Assembly (NCBI RefSeq): GCF_020164595.1
Contig: NZ_JAIQZE010000005.1
Span: 62,001 to 126,000 of the forward strand
DNA length: 64,000 nucleotides
Reading direction: 5' to 3'
Source of the DNA: Psychroflexus longus
Lineage (GTDB): Bacteria; Bacteroidota; Bacteroidia; Flavobacteriales; Flavobacteriaceae
A program made the translations under genes and the position numbers. Under the pieces are notes generated by a model. That model saw only the letters and a list, made by a program, of their open reading frames with translations. It had not been told where the DNA came from and did not search any database. Each line of letters opens with the position of its first letter. The first letter of the stretch is position 1. Below, piece after piece: positions 4,047 to 44,857 of the stretch.

Positions 4047-4408
4047 TTTGAATTGAAGCATTTTAATAAAAGCCCCCAGTTTAATTAGGTTAAGTAAAAG
4101 CCTTGTTATTTATATAATGCTTATAAAATGGATTATAGAAATGCAATTTTTTGATGAATTTATTCCGATTTCAACTCATCCAATCTTTAAACGTTTGTAA
4201 TGATTTTAAAATGAGATTCTTATAAAAGACAGGAATAAAAGACTAAACATTCTTAAATTTTCATTTTCATAAATTAAAATCATTTCGCATTTTTATCCCA
4301 AAATAGAACTAGTCCAAGACACTTTTTTACATAGAGTCCAGAAACTATTTAAACGGGGTGAAGCTGAAAAACCACAAGAGTAGGCAAAAAATTTCTAACT
4401 AATTAAAT

Positions 4409-4822
4409 ATGAAAATTAAACAACTATTATTATTAACCGTTATTGTATTCTCTCTTTCAAGCTGTTCTTACAGACTTGTAGATTTTACAGTTATTAGCTC
4501 AAAAAATGTAAGTTTAGATTTTGATAAATCTGAAGGAAAGCAGGTTGAAGGAAAAAAATCTTATTTTTTAGGATTGGGTTGGAATATAAAAGATGCGATG
4601 GATAGAGCATTAGAGAGTGCAGGTCCAGAGTACGATTTACTAGTAGATGGAGTTGTAAAATATACAGACTATCCATTTGTATTAACAATTTCTGTCGAAG
4701 GAACCGCGATTAGCTCTAGGGCCATGAGAAATAAACTTGGTGATGCTGGATTTCAAGAGTGGTTAAAGGAAAATCAACTCACTTACAATTCTAACACAGA
4801 AGAAATTACTACAGATAATTAA
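4409..4822 (+). CDS. lipoprotein of unknown function (137 aa)
   Basis: The N-terminus MKIKQLLLLTVIVFSLSSC is a lipoprotein signal with Cys19 as the lipidated residue. The mature part begins with a segment of VDFTVISSKN type followed by a conserved-looking GLGWNIKDAMDRALESAGPE stretch, reminiscent of small TRL-like lipoproteins in which a helix follows a glycine-rich turn. That assignment is tentative. The gene ends in a clear terminator. Confidence 0.75.
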   Translation: MKIKQLLLLTVIVFSLSSCSYRLVDFTVISSKNVSLDFDKSEGKQVEGKKSYFLGLGWNIKDAMDRALESAGPEYDLLVDGVVKYTDYPFVLTISVEGTAISSRAMRNKLGDAGFQEWLKENQLTYNSNTEEITTDN

Positions 4823-32962: not shown

Positions 32963-35679
32963 CTACTCGTGCTTTTTTCTTCGAAAAAACTTAAATATTT
33001 CCATCACAAAAATCATTGGTACAGCTAGCGCCAATACATACAACCACTCGTTAAAACTAATTGGCTCAGTTCTTAAGATATCTTGCATAATGGGAATTTG
33101 CATGCTCAAGATGTGAATTCCCTGAGCTAACAAAACTCCAAAAACAAGTACGACATTTCTTTTTAGTGGTACTCTGAAAGTTGAAACTCGCTCGGAACGA
33201 CAGTTAAATACATGAAAGTTTTGCATAAAAACCATTAGCAGCAGAATAATATTGCGTGCATGTACTTCATTCATTTGGGTGAACGTGTTTAAATAATACC
33301 AGAGCCCAAAAGCAATTAATCCCATAGCTCCACCTGAAACTACGGTTTGACTAATCATAAGCGGGTTGAATATTTTTTCTGATGGTTTTCTTGGTTTTCG
33401 CTCCATGGCATCTGGTTCTCCGCCTTCAAATGCAAGGGAAACATCTTGTATGCCGTTAGTAACTAGGTTGAGCCAAAGTAACTGAACTGCAAGTAGCGGC
33501 AGTGGCAATCCAGCAGCAATCGATGCGAGAAAAGGGATGATTTCTGCAGCTCCCGTTGAAATCAATAGATAAATTACTTTTCGCACATTATCGAAGGCAA
33601 ACCGGCCTTCTTCTACGCCTGCAACAATCGATGAAAAGTTATCGTCTACGACAATCATTGACCCCACTTCTTTTGCTACATCAGTACCCGAACCCATAGC
33701 TATGCCAATATTGGCGCGTTTAAGAGCAGGAGCATCATTCACGCCGTCACCTGTCACGGCAACAAATTCATCTTTATGAATCAACACCTCTACAATTTCA
33801 AGTTTTTGGGTTGGAGAAACTCTGGCAAAAACAGAGGTTGATGCTACCAATTTTTCAAATGCAGGATGATCTACTGCTCCTGCTTCAGTTAGCATTTGTC
33901 CAGTTACAACTGGAGTTGTTGTGTCGGCTATTCCCAACTCACGTGCTATGGCACCAGCTGTTGCTGGGTGATCTCCGGTGATCATGATTACTCTAATGCC
34001 AGCTTTATTGCATTGCTCTACAGATGTTTTTGCCTCCGGTCTTAGCGGGTCAATAAAGCCTACAAGTCCGTAAAATGTGAGTTCAGGGATATCTTTATTG
34101 TCATAAATTTCCTTTTTCTGAAAATTAGGGTATTCACCACTGGCAAAGGCTAATACACGATAACCATCTTTAGCAACTTGTTCTGCATCAGCAAGTATCT
34201 TGTTTTTGTCAATAGCTTCGATTTTACCATTCACGGACATCAAAGAACAAAAGTCGAGAACGGTTTCTACAGCGCCTTTTAGTCCTACAATTACCGAGTT
34301 GTTGATATTGTAAAATGATGCAGCGAATTTTCGTTCGGATTCATAAGGGATCTTTGCTATGGGTTGTTCTTTTCTTATCCATTCCTAGGGATCGATTCCA
34401 AGCTTGTAACTCATGCCAAGAAGGGCAACGTCCATGGCATCTCCATAATACGTCCACTTATTATTTTCATTAATTAAAGAAGTTTCGTTTGCAAAAACAG
34501 CAATTTGGGTAAGTTTTGATAATTCATGATTTCCAGAAAATTCAATTTGCTCGTTTTCATTATTGATTACTGATCCCACTCCGTTATAACCCTCGCCTTC
34601 AATAGTGAATCTTTTTCCATTCGCTAGTGCAATAAGTTTAGCCGTTTGCTCATTTACAGTTAGCGTCCCCGTTTTATCACTCGCAATCACAGTACAACTG
34701 CCCAAACTTTCAACTGCCGTCAACTTGCGAACAATTACATTTCGCTTGGCCATTCGTTTCGTCGCGATGGATAAGGCCACCGTTAAGGCTACAGGTAAAC
34801 CTTCTGGTATTGCTGCTACTGCCAGGGCGACCACAAAAAAGAAGATCGCAGTCATATCCATACCTTGCAGTCGGAGTATAACAGCTAAAACAATACTCAG
34901 TACGATAATAAAAATGCTGATCTGCTTGATGAATTTCTCCATACGCTGCACCAAAGGTGGCTTAGCAGAAGCTGATTCCGTCACATCCTTCGAAATTTTA
35001 CCCACCTGCGTGTTTGTGCCAGTGCTTACCACAACGCCAATACCTCTTCCTTTTAGTACTGTAGCCCCAGCAAAAGCCATATTCGTTCTTTCGGCAACGC
35101 CAAGATTTTCTTGTAATATGCTGGTTTGTTTTTTTGCTGCTATGGATTCACCGGTAAGAAAACTTTCGTCTATTTCCAACTCAGATACTTCAACTAACCT
35201 TATATCGGCAGGAACTTTCATTCCTGATTCAATAAGTATAATATCGCCTGGTACAATCTCTTCTGAAGGTATTTCTGTTTCTTTCCCCGCTCTTCTTACT
35301 CGTGCCTTAACTTTCATTAGTTTCCGAAGGCTGCTGGCGCTTTTCTCCGCATTATATTCTTGGTAAGCTCCCAAAGCACTATTGATGAAAATTACTAGAA
35401 AAATAAATAAGGCATCTTTTCCTCTCCAATGGCAACCGATGCCACAGCTGCTGCAATAAGTATAAAGATCAGTGGATTTAATAACTGATGCAAAATGATC
35501 TGCAAGAGTGTTATTCTTCGGCCTTGAGGAAGTTTATTTTCTCCGTAAAATTGAATTCGTTTATTGACTTCTTCCTGGTTCAATCCTATGTCTGAAGTTT
35601 TTAACTCGCCGTAAATTTCTTCTTTGTCGTAGGCATGCCAATGTTTTTTATCTAGGGTGTTTTGGAGGTTCATGTTCAT
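32963..35679 (-). pseudogene. P-type (calcium/cation) ATPase, disrupted
   Basis: Three adjoining frames make up one P2-type ATPase of about 905 residues: 35679-35395 (N-terminal domain, QNTLDKKHWHAYDKEE), about 35405-34385 (actuator domain with TGES, PEGLP, phosphorylation site DKTGTLT) and 34384-32963 (hinge TGDGVNDAP, last membrane helices). The first break is a frameshift explained by one A missing from a run near 35410 (GEEK should continue DALFIFL). The second is an in-frame TAG at 34385-34387, with the frame open on both sides. All catalytic motifs remain, so decay is recent. It might be a functional gene carrying sequencing errors. Confidence 0.85.
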
Positions 35680-40234: not shown

Positions 40235-41413
40235 TTAGTCTGGAAACACAGCGACAAAGACTTTAGCTGATTGGGCTTCAAATTGCTCTTTTAAATCTTT
40301 GATTGATAATTTTCCAATTTTATACTGAAGGTGCTTCCGGGTTCCACAAAGGATCTCAGTTTTAAATTTAAATGGCACTAGATCTTCTTTATCGTAGGAG
40401 GATATATAAACTTTGATCTGTTGGGCTGGATTAAATTCAGAACTACTAGTCTCAGCTTTTGAGTATGAATAAGTATAATCCCTCAATAGTGAAACCACAT
40501 CCGAAAGCACTGCGCTTGCAGTCGGAATGCTCCCTGCTCCTTTGCCTTGTAGAAGTTGTTGCTGAGCAAATTCAGCATCGATTTGCACGGCATTATTTTC
40601 GAATTCAATTGAGGTTAGTAAATTATTATTTTTGATAAATTGAGGAGCCACAAAAGCGTTCAGTCCATCGTCATTGAGTTCAGAATGTCCCAAAACTTTT
40701 ATACTGAAGTTTTTTTCTTTTGCAAATTCAATATCCTCTGGTTTGACGTGTCGTATGCCTAAATTCAAAATATCTTCAGGTGTATTCAAAACTCCAAAAG
40801 CGTGATAATTGCTAATGATGAGTTTGAATTTGGAATCCCAGCCATCGATGTCCAAAGTTGGATCCGATTCTGCAAAACCGTGTTTTTGAGCATCGGTGAT
40901 GATTCTATCAAAAGGCTGTGGGTTTTGAAACAAACGTGTCAATACATAATTACAGGTTCCATTACTGATAGCCCTCAGCGATTTTATGGAGTCCTGACCA
41001 AAAGATTCTTCCAGTGTCCTTATCACAGGAATGCTTCCGCAAACCGATGCTTCGTAAAGTAAACTCACATTCTGTTTTTGGGCTAAAGAAGTAAGTTCCT
41101 GAAAATGTTCAGCGAGCATCTTTTTGTTGGCAGTAATGACATGCTTTCTTTTTTCTAAAGCTTTTTTCACAATTGAATAAGCAGCATCGGCGTCATCAAT
41201 CAATTCCAAAACAAGGTTGATGTCCTCATCTTCCAAAATATCCTTGGGTTGATAGCTGAAGTGCTCTGCGTTTTTAGATCTTGGTTTATCAGGATTTTTG
41301 ACAACAATAGTCTTAAGCTTTATGTTTGGAATTGTTTTTTTCTTGAGTAAATGATAAATTCCAGAACCTACACTTCCAAATCCAAATAATCCAATAGTAA
41401 GTTGTTGTGGCAT
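40235..41413 (-). CDS. hom: homoserine dehydrogenase
   Basis: Reduces aspartate semialdehyde to homoserine, the branch point to methionine and threonine. The 392-residue protein has a Rossmann start GLFGFGSVGSGIYHLL, the ITANKKMLAEH and SVCGSIPVIRTL segments, and NGTCNYVLT and GWDSKFKL with catalytic residues. It has no aspartokinase part and no obvious ACT domain. It is last in metY-osmC-metX-hom, three bases after metX, so the SAM riboswitch should control homoserine supply too. Confidence 0.9.
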   Translation of the reverse strand: MPQQLTIGLFGFGSVGSGIYHLLKKKTIPNIKLKTIVVKNPDKPRSKNAEHFSYQPKDILEDEDINLVLELIDDADAAYSIVKKALEKRKHVITANKKMLAEHFQELTSLAQKQNVSLLYEASVCGSIPVIRTLEESFGQDSIKSLRAISNGTCNYVLTRLFQNPQPFDRIITDAQKHGFAESDPTLDIDGWDSKFKLIISNYHAFGVLNTPEDILNLGIRHVKPEDIEFAKEKNFSIKVLGHSELNDDGLNAFVAPQFIKNNNLLTSIEFENNAVQIDAEFAQQQLLQGKGAGSIPTASAVLSDVVSLLRDYTYSYSKAETSSSEFNPAQQIKVYISSYDKEDLVPFKFKTEILCGTRKHLQYKIGKLSIKDLKEQFEAQSAKVFVAVFPD

Positions 41414-41416
41414 TAG

Positions 41417-42427
41417 TTATAATTTAAAATGTTTTCGTAATACTAATTTTATGGTTTCAACTTCAATTAAAAATCCGTCGTGTCCATAGGATGAATCGAT
41501 GATCTCTAGAGCTGAATCACTTATATGTTCAGCTAAAAATTTTTGTTCTTCAACAGGGAAAAGCAAATCGCTTTGAATCCCAATGACCAAAGTTTTGGCT
41601 TTGATTTTTGCAAGTGCTTTTTCACAGCTGTTTCTATTTCTACCTACATTATGGCTATCCATAGCTTTGGATAAGTACCAATAGGATTTTGCATAAAATC
41701 TCTTGGAAAGCTTTTCTCCCTGGTATTTTTGATAAGAGGATGCTCTAAAATCATCTACCGCATTTTCTTCATCTATTTGAGTGGATTGATAGGTGTTGTA
41801 GTTTCTATAACTCAGCAAAGCAATAGCTCTTGCAGCTTCTAGTCCTTTTTTTCCAGCAATTTTATCGTTGTTATAGAAAGTAGGATCCGACTCAATCGCC
41901 ATGCGTTGTGTTTCATTTAAAGCAATTCCCCATGAAGAATGCTTGGGGCTGGTAGCCAGTAAAACCAGCTTTTTTATTTTATCTGGTTTTTGAATAGCCC
42001 ATTCCATAGCTTGCATGCCTCCCATTGATCCGCCCATCAAATATTGGATTTCTGAAATTCCCAGATCTTCACTTAAGATGTCTAAGGTTTTGGCAATGTC
42101 CCGAATACTGAATTTTGGGAAATCCAATCCATAAACTTCATTCGTTTCAGGATTAATGCTTTGAGGAGAAGTGCTGCCATAACAAGAGCCTAGTATATTT
42201 GCACACACTACAAAATACTTATCCAGATCAATTCCATTCTTTTTGTCGAAAATACCAGGCCACCATTCTTCTGGATGTGCATTTGCCGTAAGAGCATGGC
42301 AAATCCAAATAACGTTGGAGCCTTCAGCATTGAGTTTGCCTAGAGTATTATAAGCTAACTCAAACTCTGGTAGAGTCTGACCGTTTTCTAGTTCGAAAGG
42401 ATGTTGATATGAAAATACCTTAGGCAT
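41417..42427 (-). CDS. metX: homoserine O-acetyltransferase
   Basis: An alpha/beta-hydrolase-fold enzyme that acetylates homoserine with acetyl-CoA. Of 336 residues; nucleophile elbow [12 protein letters not shown], later the aspartate in [10 protein letters not shown] and the histidine in [10 protein letters not shown] lid region lies between. It overlaps the OsmC gene by eight bases and makes the substrate of MetY, encoded in the same operon. A succinyltransferase cannot be fully excluded but the family is MetX. Confidence 0.92.
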
Positions 42428-42884
42428 AAGCTTCCTCCTTGTAGGATGATTTTTTAATGTGATAATTGATGGGAGTTTCGTTACTCAAATTATCATTAAT
42501 AGGGCAGCGTTGTTTTACATTTTTCAGCAGAAAATCAACACTTTCCTGAGTGGCATTCGTGACAAAATCAATATCAACATCCAAAGACTGAAACCCAGCC
42601 CTACCTTCTTCCGAAAGTCCTAAAAACTTGGAAGCGTCTATATTACCATTGATATTGATTTTCATATCGTAAATTTTGATCCCTAGGTCTTTAGCTGCCA
42701 GATTGATGACTACATTAAGACACCCTGCATAGCCTGCCAATAAATACTCAACAGGGTTGGCAGCTAAATCTTTTCCGCCAAGTTCGTTGGGCTCATCTAC
42801 CAAGAAATTGAATTGTCTTGATGTTCCTCGATATAAGGTTGAATTAATACTCGATCCGTTTATTGAAAAGTTTGAAATACTCAT
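42420..42884 (-). CDS. OsmC-family protein
   Basis: A 154-residue OsmC/Ohr-fold protein. One cysteine is in the central helix ([15 protein letters not shown]) and the second in [10 protein letters not shown], the spacing of the redox-active pair of the family, which reduces organic hydroperoxides with thiols. It is placed between metY and metX, with 13 bases to metY and an overlap with metX, so it is translated with methionine genes. What it does there is not known; a link to thiol or sulfide handling is inference. Confidence 0.88.
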
Positions 42885-42897
42885 AATTCTGAATTTT

Positions 42898-44268
<1,371 letters not shown>

Positions 44269-44296
44269 TTAAGATGGAAATTTTTGGGAAGTAAGC

Positions 44297-44344
44297 CTAT
44301 GCGCACATATAGCAACAGCACGACATAGGCGTGTGCATTCGCAT
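44297..44344 (-). CDS. putative Met/Cys-rich leader peptide (15 aa)
   Basis: On the minus strand, between the riboswitch and metY, ATG at 44344 opens MRMHTPMSCCCYMCA followed by TAG. Four residues are Met and four are Cys, three of them in a row, in the leader of an operon that makes methionine from a sulfur donor. CCTATG and CATAGG inside it can pair (44295-44330), so a stalled ribosome would change the RNA fold. A second in-frame ATG is at 44338. Translation is not proven. The stop lies 94 bases before metY. Confidence 0.45.
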   Translation of the reverse strand: MRMHTPMSCCCYMCA

Positions 44345-44438
44345 CGTAGATAAATAAGAAAGTAAAATTGATTTCAATTCATTTAAGAATTGAAAGAGTA
44401 CGGTAGTAATTAAAAGATAGAAATTCATAGTCTTATAA

Positions 44439-44535
44439 TTTATATTTCCCTTCTTGGGCAGGAATTAGCACCTTTCAACACTTTGTTGAGGTTGCCGAGG
44501 GTCGCGGAGCCTGTCTCTCGCCTCTTCTTTATAAA
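44439..44535 (-). ncRNA. SAM-I (S-box) riboswitch
   Basis: On the minus strand the sequence has the S-box hallmarks in order: AGAGGCGAGAGACAGGCTCC, GACCCTCGGCAACCTC, an extensible hairpin (CAACAAAGTGTTG), and AAGGTGCTAATTCCTGCCC. The closing P1 helix is TTTATA with TATAAA. It binds S-adenosylmethionine and should lower expression of metY-osmC-metX-hom when SAM is high. A leader of about 240 bases separates it from metY; I see no classical terminator with a T tract there, so the output step may be translational or involve the leader peptide. Confidence 0.92.
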
Positions 44536-44565
44536 TCATACACCGAAAAATGGCAGATGATGATG

Positions 44566-44594
44566 CAAATATAGAATAGGATTTTAATTTACAA
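44566..44594 (-). promoter_or_regulatory. promoter of the methionine operon
   Basis: On the minus strand TTG (44594-44592), 18 bases and TATATTTG (44573-44566) fit the Bacteroidota consensus. The predicted transcript starts about 25-30 bases before the SAM-I riboswitch. Confidence 0.75.
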
Positions 44595-44655
44595 AGACAA
44601 GGAAAAGGTTTTTTTGTTAAAAAAAGTTAATTCAAGACATTTCAATTTTTTAAAT

Positions 44656-44685
44656 GAAAAAAGCCCTGTTTTTCAGGGCTTTTTC
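44656..44685. terminator. perfect terminator hairpin with no annotated gene before it
   Basis: GAAAAAAGCCCTG and CAGGGCTTTTTC form a strong stem with a T-rich loop. On the minus strand it is followed by TTTTTT, on the plus strand by CTTTTTC. Neither flanking gene (metY reading away, recA starting at 44969) needs a terminator here. Confidence 0.8.
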
Positions 44686-44857
44686 AAAAATGTTGTAAAA
44701 AACAACAAGGTTTGGCTAATTCGTTGTTATACATTTTTAATCCTTTGTATTAAATCAAAAATTTAACAACGTCAGCCCCCGTCGATTTTACAGCTGGAAA
44801 CAGTCATAAATGAGACTGAAATCCCATGTGTATTGGTTATAGATGTCTTTTTAAGAA
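44656..44857 (-). ncRNA. candidate small RNA between the methionine operon and recA
   Basis: This stretch has no gene but is structured. On the minus strand, a promoter-like TTG, 18 bases, TATTATTTG (44891-44862; one base longer than consensus) would start an RNA of about 200 bases. It contains CAGTC/GACTG, CGTTGTTA/TAACAACG and TTGTTG/CAACA-type hairpins and ends in a perfect intrinsic terminator. It matches no RNA family I recognise, and the promoter assignment is tentative. Confidence 0.35.

Follow-up and report, generated by a model that had tools for sequence, protein, structure and literature searches.

Upstream of metY in the window (the whole stretch of 64,000 nucleotides of Psychroflexus longus DNA that was analysed), a SAM-I riboswitch aptamer is followed closely by a leader ORF that ends in a block of Met and Cys codons, and the aptamer, the leader, the spacing between them and the codon content are conserved in the genus and recur at other Bacteroidota metY genes. 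Judged from these comparisons, the locus rather probably encodes a composite leader RNA with two inputs, in which SAM would gate translation of the Met/Cys leader and the ribosome on that leader would then sense charged tRNA. Such a pairing of SAM-I and leader would probably allow the SAM level to be assessed together with Met and Cys supply before the gene is switched on. A broader reading is given an even chance: that SAM-I here controls not the gene directly but the reading of a second, ribosome-based sensor of Met-tRNA and Cys-tRNA, with SAM and Met/Cys weighed together, and that the two sensors stand in both orders at Bacteroidota metY genes, with different modes of termination, as if the combination had arisen more than once. 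The features of the window locus are as follows.

44566..44595, minus strand: promoter-like site TTTG-N18-TATATTTG, upstream of the aptamer (script pattern match)
44437..44537, minus strand: SAM-I riboswitch aptamer (Rfam RF00162, 72.4 bits, E 5.4e-15, gathering score 44.4)
44297..44428, minus strand: leader ORF of 43 codons and TAG, MNFYLLITTVLFQFLNELKSILLSYLSTMRMHTPMSCCCYMCA, with its ATG at 44428, 8 nt after the aptamer
44297..44344, minus strand: Met/Cys-rich leader tail MRMHTPMSCCCYMCA-stop, proposed control codons (from codon content and phylum-wide enrichment)
44295..44330, minus strand: hairpin I, GCCTATG...CATAGGC, covering the leader stop and some of the Met/Cys codons
44237..44269, minus strand: hairpin II, between leader and metY, without a U-tract
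42898..44202, minus strand: metY, O-acetylhomoserine aminocarboxypropyltransferase (NCBIfam TIGR01326, 667.7 bits, cut-off 495.1)
42420..42884, minus strand: gene for an OsmC-like protein, next after metY (NF041052, 78.8 bits, below the cut-off of 95)
41417..42427, minus strand: metX, homoserine O-acetyltransferase (NF001209, 333.1 bits, cut-off 331)
40235..41413, minus strand: hom, homoserine dehydrogenase (NF004976, 333 bits, cut-off 205)

The covariance-model match to RF00162 covers the full model (1-108), and the aptamer also scored 86.3 bits with model R1, in the survey entry that corresponds to the window locus (L140). Downstream of the leader the gene order is metY-osmC-metX-hom, and the divergent neighbour of the locus is recA. 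The promoter-like pattern, which follows the Bacteroidetes -33/-7 type of consensus, has six matches on both strands of the 64 kb. The sequence-only reading had placed a short Met/Cys-rich frame ending in a stop codon between the aptamer and metY, and the frame is there, at 44344-44297 on the minus strand; its length was misjudged, since what was described as a 15-codon ORF is the in-frame end of the 43-codon ORF, and a frame confined to 15 codons is ruled out by the open sequence reaching up to the AUG at 44428. The last 15 codons hold four Met and four Cys; apart from the start codon, the other 27 contain neither. Pairing across the end of the frame was likewise confirmed, as GCCTATG with CATAGGC.

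Several other elements were seen in the window in passing. Within the leader body, at 44372-44395 on the minus strand, there is an A/T-rich hairpin (TTTCAATTC...GAATTGAAA), and similar palindromes occur in several of the group-A relatives described below. Between the divergent metY and recA, at about 44656-44686, the hairpin AAAGCCCTG/CAGGGCTTT, flanked by runs of T on either strand, resembles a bidirectional terminator, with no obvious transcript ending there. A DUF805 RNA (RF03081, 64.6 bits) lies at 4326-4390 on the plus strand, just before a 137-codon ORF (4409-4822) that appears by eye to encode a small lipoprotein, and at 32963-35374 on the minus strand what appears by eye to be one cation-transport ATPase is split into two ORFs (426 and 329 codons), possibly by a frameshift or a misassembly.

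A leader survey covered metY upstream regions and 109 SAM-I loci at other genes. The metY set comprised 188 Bacteroidota loci, which are among the best matches to the window MetY and not a random draw, and which include 5 near-duplicates and two Psychroflexus rows (L060 and L061). With a tail counted as rich when at least 5 of its last 15 residues are Met or Cys, a cut chosen after the scores had been seen, a rich-tail frame occurs in the last 450 nt before metY in 73 of the 188 regions, against 1 of 1880 dinucleotide shuffles (71 of 183 once near-duplicates are removed). A stricter cut of at least 6 leaves 65 of 188 against 0 of 1880, and 600-nt regions give 80 of 188 against 9 of 1880; a chance frame is ruled out by the shuffle comparisons at both region lengths. 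Using R1, a covariance model built in this analysis with matches accepted to E 0.05, SAM-I was found within 600 nt of metY at 124 of the 188 loci. At this length the loci fall into five classes: SAM-I then leader then metY (40), leader then SAM-I then metY (20), leader only (20), SAM-I only (64) and neither (44). Rich tails include ...RMCMCCCCCC in Pontibacter (L107), ...QPCCMCCCCCCC in a Cyclobacteriaceae MAG (L074), ...YMRMCMCCCC in Marivirga (L082) and ...LMCCCMCCCMC in a Flavobacteriales MAG (L063); a leader-first example is ...REMMCMCCYMQTLH in Balneola (L130). Both Cys codons are used in the 40 SAM-then-leader loci (TGT 132, TGC 106). In a Marinilabiliaceae-like set (L083, L085, L087, L088, L090 and L092) the leaders are dominated by Met (MMMCMMMTR, MMMGRMSMA), and SAM-I was not found there.

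Conservation within the genus was followed in 27 Psychroflexus genomes, 18 of which have a metY ortholog (at least 68% identity), the best MetY matches in the other nine reaching 44% identity or less. At all 18 loci the SAM-I aptamer is present (one genome, G017, has a second one, L168) and the leader frame is open, at 29-47 codons, with 5 to 9 Met or Cys in the last 15 residues. Together the tails contain 67 Met and 52 Cys in 270 residues, and the leader bodies 10 Met or Cys in 452. The expectation that relatives would keep the frame and its Met/Cys codons thus held for the open frame and the rich tail but not for Cys as such: no tail has fewer than two Met, Cys is optional, single Cys positions vary even within the genus, and poly-Cys as a constant feature is ruled out by tails ranging from 2 to 7 Met and 0 to 5 Cys. 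Three groups were distinguished by eye, namely group A (ten genomes, with tails such as MRMHTPMSCCCYMCA), group B (G001 and G006, with the Met-only tails VMMMSMRMQ and MMMSMYMRMRMQ) and group C (six genomes, for example MRMCC, IRMQMCC and MCCCQNMCC). Across eight genome pairs, substitutions in the last 15 codons number 5, 15 and 23 at codon positions 1, 2 and 3, which counts in favour of the two-input reading. The leader body is unconserved (24 one-change codons silent, 46 not, in the same number of pairs), which counts against it.

The distance from aptamer to leader bears on how the two sensors relate. In the SAM-then-leader class the AUG lies 7-10 nt behind the aptamer at 34 of 40 loci (the outliers being L069, L078, L082, L102, L125 and L236), and in Psychroflexus at 15 of 18, the remaining gaps being 1 nt (G005), 4 nt (G001) and 13 nt (G006). 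When a slightly wider interval of 6-11 nt is compared between classes, an AUG is found there at 34 of 40 SAM-then-leader, 24 of 64 SAM-only and 1 of 20 leader-then-SAM metY loci. Of 109 SAM-I loci ahead of other genes, taken from Flavobacteriaceae and the order it belongs to, just 1 has such an AUG, and the frame it opens is two codons long; these 109 are the best-scoring matches fetched out of a larger set. A near-fixed, short distance of this kind makes the two sensors look coupled and not just consecutive. It weighs against the most serious competing account, in which riboswitch and leader are two independent layers, the riboswitch acting by its own means (for example on RNA stability or through Rho) and the leader being a separate tRNA attenuator behind it. 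Such independence agrees with the existence of leaders alone (20 of 188) and aptamers alone (64 of 188), and also with the 20 loci where the leader precedes the aptamer, at which the aptamer would not be expected to gate the leader start. With the 7-10 nt gap so regular in both samples, and a near AUG so rare at other SAM-I loci, it is regarded as unlikely, though it is the strongest of the alternatives.

The same control loci bear on the tail. Their best tail score was 3 of 15 in 108 of the 109, and L225, scanned separately, had a best of 3; a rich tail as a general trait of SAM-I loci in Flavobacteriaceae and its order is thereby ruled out. Upstream of metH-type genes (L037, L040, L042, L045, L050 and L057) a tiny frame whose first residues are MTYRY was seen repeatedly, about 25 nt behind the SAM-I aptamer. 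Among the 24 SAM-only metY loci with a near AUG, 18 have an ORF start 6-9 nt behind the aptamer (L066-L068, L070-L073, L075-L077, L089, L094, L103, L230, L231, L233, L235 and L245); these come mostly from Algoriphagus and its kin, and also from Belliella, Mongoliibacter, Echinicola, Lunatimonas and one Pontibacter, and none of the 18 has a tail of 5 Met/Cys, although seven have 3 or 4. Loci of this type, keeping aptamer and nearby ORF start with a poorer tail, lend themselves to an account in which the upstream ORF is there chiefly to be translated under riboswitch control, for instance to protect the leader RNA from Rho, and the Met/Cys tail adds little. That account is considered improbable in view of the Met/Cys tails at the 40 SAM-then-leader loci, which are far above shuffles, and of where the block sits: it abuts the stop codon, 27 of the 40 leaders end in Met or Cys, and a median of 0 codons follows the last of these residues, against 4 in the leader-then-SAM class.

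Hairpin I is nearly invariant in the ten group-A genomes and, because of that, has no covariation support. As it overlaps part of the tail, the Met/Cys letters could be read as a by-product of a conserved RNA hairpin in a frame that is not translated, but the tails of groups B and C and of the wider phylum differ in sequence while still drawing on these two amino acids, and either Cys codon is used, and this explanation is given very little credence. Equally hard to credit is a role for the peptide as such, for instance in binding metals or thiols or as an arrest peptide, since the Cys/Met runs, which could bind metal and in many leaders end at the stop codon, vary from all Met to nearly all Cys among relatives on unconserved bodies, unlike an arrest motif. 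Hairpin II has four pairs kept with changes on both sides in the same ten genomes; occlusion of the metY start by it was judged unlikely because the hairpin ends at 44237, ahead of the metY start at 44202. The fold of the window leader RNA as a whole is somewhat better than that of shuffled sequences (z -1.7), 3 of 100 of which did equally well.

The classes also differ in how transcription might be ended. Where the leader comes first, its stop lies 83-116 nt before the aptamer at all 20 loci, and all 20 have an intrinsic terminator between leader and aptamer (shuffles 4 of 60); leader-only loci have one in 12 of 20 (shuffles 2 of 60). At 24 of these 32 terminator-bearing loci, complementarity between the 5' terminator arm and the end of the leader reaches p<=0.05 by mononucleotide shuffles, and by sequence these loci have the layout of a classical attenuator. 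In a blunter test, of the leader end against all downstream RNA, p<=0.05 was obtained at 8 of 20 leader-only, 3 of 20 leader-first, 8 of 40 SAM-then-leader and 2 of 18 Psychroflexus loci, with p=0.16 at the window locus. An intrinsic terminator within the next 200 nt was found at 2 of 40 SAM-then-leader loci, no more commonly than in shuffles (3 of 120), so that the step from a stalled ribosome to metY is left unexplained by a canonical terminator in this class. None was found at the window locus either, for which reason the leader is said to work like an attenuator and is not classed as a classical one. Psychroflexus overall has terminators at 2 of 18 loci, behind the Met leaders of G001 and G006. 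In G001, by eye, TGTCTA can pair with TAGGCA and the terminator arms can pair with each other; the leader end can pair with the terminator arm over at least 11 bp, also in the minimum-energy fold. On this model G001 would have an attenuator of four segments, and a leader left untranslated could bring about termination; under that scheme SAM and charged tRNA would both switch metY off.

For the window genome, Rho is a candidate. A Rho gene is present, and the 94 nt between the leader stop and the metY start contain 18 C and 7 G. Behind the leader, C is at least 1.5 times G at 18 of 18 Psychroflexus loci, against 8 of 43 window genes. The sequence is thus compatible with Rho termination at the window locus, which is offered as possible only and is kept as a guess because the same skew precedes metY at 28 of the 44 metY loci that have neither aptamer nor leader.

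The two-input scheme preferred here can be set out in steps, in which sensing of tRNA rests on comparison and gating by SAM on geometry, and the step to metY is one that we infer. The SAM-I aptamer would sense SAM. P1, the helix that closes it, ends 8 nt short of the leader AUG, within the space needed by a starting ribosome, and SAM binding should therefore reduce translation of the leader. A ribosome that does read the terminal Met/Cys codons would, going by their content, stall at or near the stop when Met-tRNA or Cys-tRNA is scarce; once stalled it would hold hairpin I open and shield the sequence immediately downstream of the stop, so that transcription would tend to continue into metY. 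Completed translation of the leader, or a leader left without a ribosome, would allow premature termination, and in the window genome this may occur by Rho or by hairpin refolding, which are proposed because no intrinsic terminator was found. The metY-osmC-metX-hom run would then reach full expression only when low SAM coincides with a shortage of Met or Cys. That a Met/Cys leader stands in series with SAM-I as a second layer of control had been suggested from the sequence alone, with a 15-codon peptide in mind; comparison supports the second layer, and it is the leader of 43 codons that would carry it.

If this is correct, a single RNA would distinguish a sufficient level of SAM from a sufficient supply of methionine and cysteine for making protein, and the riboswitch would have translation of a second sensor as its output. 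Bacteroidota would also gain widespread Met/Cys leader ORFs with natural variants that can be compared (both orders, leader only and aptamer only).

The individual parts have precedents. Attenuators of the trp, his and tnaC type carry their control codons within a leader ORF, and the leader-first metY loci are like them in showing leader, antiterminator-like and terminator parts; we know of no metabolite aptamer ahead of the leader in these attenuators. Cysteine leader peptides of Actinobacteria cys operons were reportedly described by Canestrari 2020, and tandem sensors in one leader RNA are said to be the subject of Sherlock 2018. In the accessible text on Actinobacteria cys operons, a short leader ORF has a run of Cys codons near its stop and no obvious terminator, and the authors suggest Rho (PMC1262725); phylum and genes differ from the present case, and that portion of the paper mentions neither a riboswitch nor Met codons (PMC1262725). 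The uORFC-8-2 motif of Rhodobacterales cysS, an upstream ORF with two tandem Cys codons and a terminator, is interpreted by its authors as a ribosome-mediated attenuator and, as far as the available section goes, differs from the metY leader in having no SAM sensor and in preceding a tRNA synthetase gene (PMC8632094). At Sinorhizobium meliloti metA a SAM-II riboswitch controls translation; of two AUGs in the same frame, separated by a terminator, the second is the start codon of MetA, and amino-acid control codons are not mentioned in the part of the article at hand (PMC9373788). Two sensors also share a leader RNA in the TPP plus thiS motif (PMC6429828), and tandem attenuators do so in Salmonella mgtCBR (PMC3641672). 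In the portions available for these tandem systems, that of Sherlock 2018 included, SAM-I is not combined with a leader peptide that senses tRNA.

By sequence and structure score the window aptamer is a plain member of the SAM-I (S-box) family, RF00162, upstream of a methionine gene; what departs from that family is that, at many Bacteroidota metY genes, a Met/Cys leader ORF comes after the aptamer with a short and almost constant spacing. Already known are SAM-I aptamers as such, leader peptides rich in Cys, translational control by SAM-II at metA and tandem sensors. As had been supposed from the sequence, no earlier description of SAM-I directly ahead of a Met/Cys leader peptide was recognised in the literature searched, which lay mostly outside subscription journals, and the arrangement is therefore held to be a new variation on known parts.
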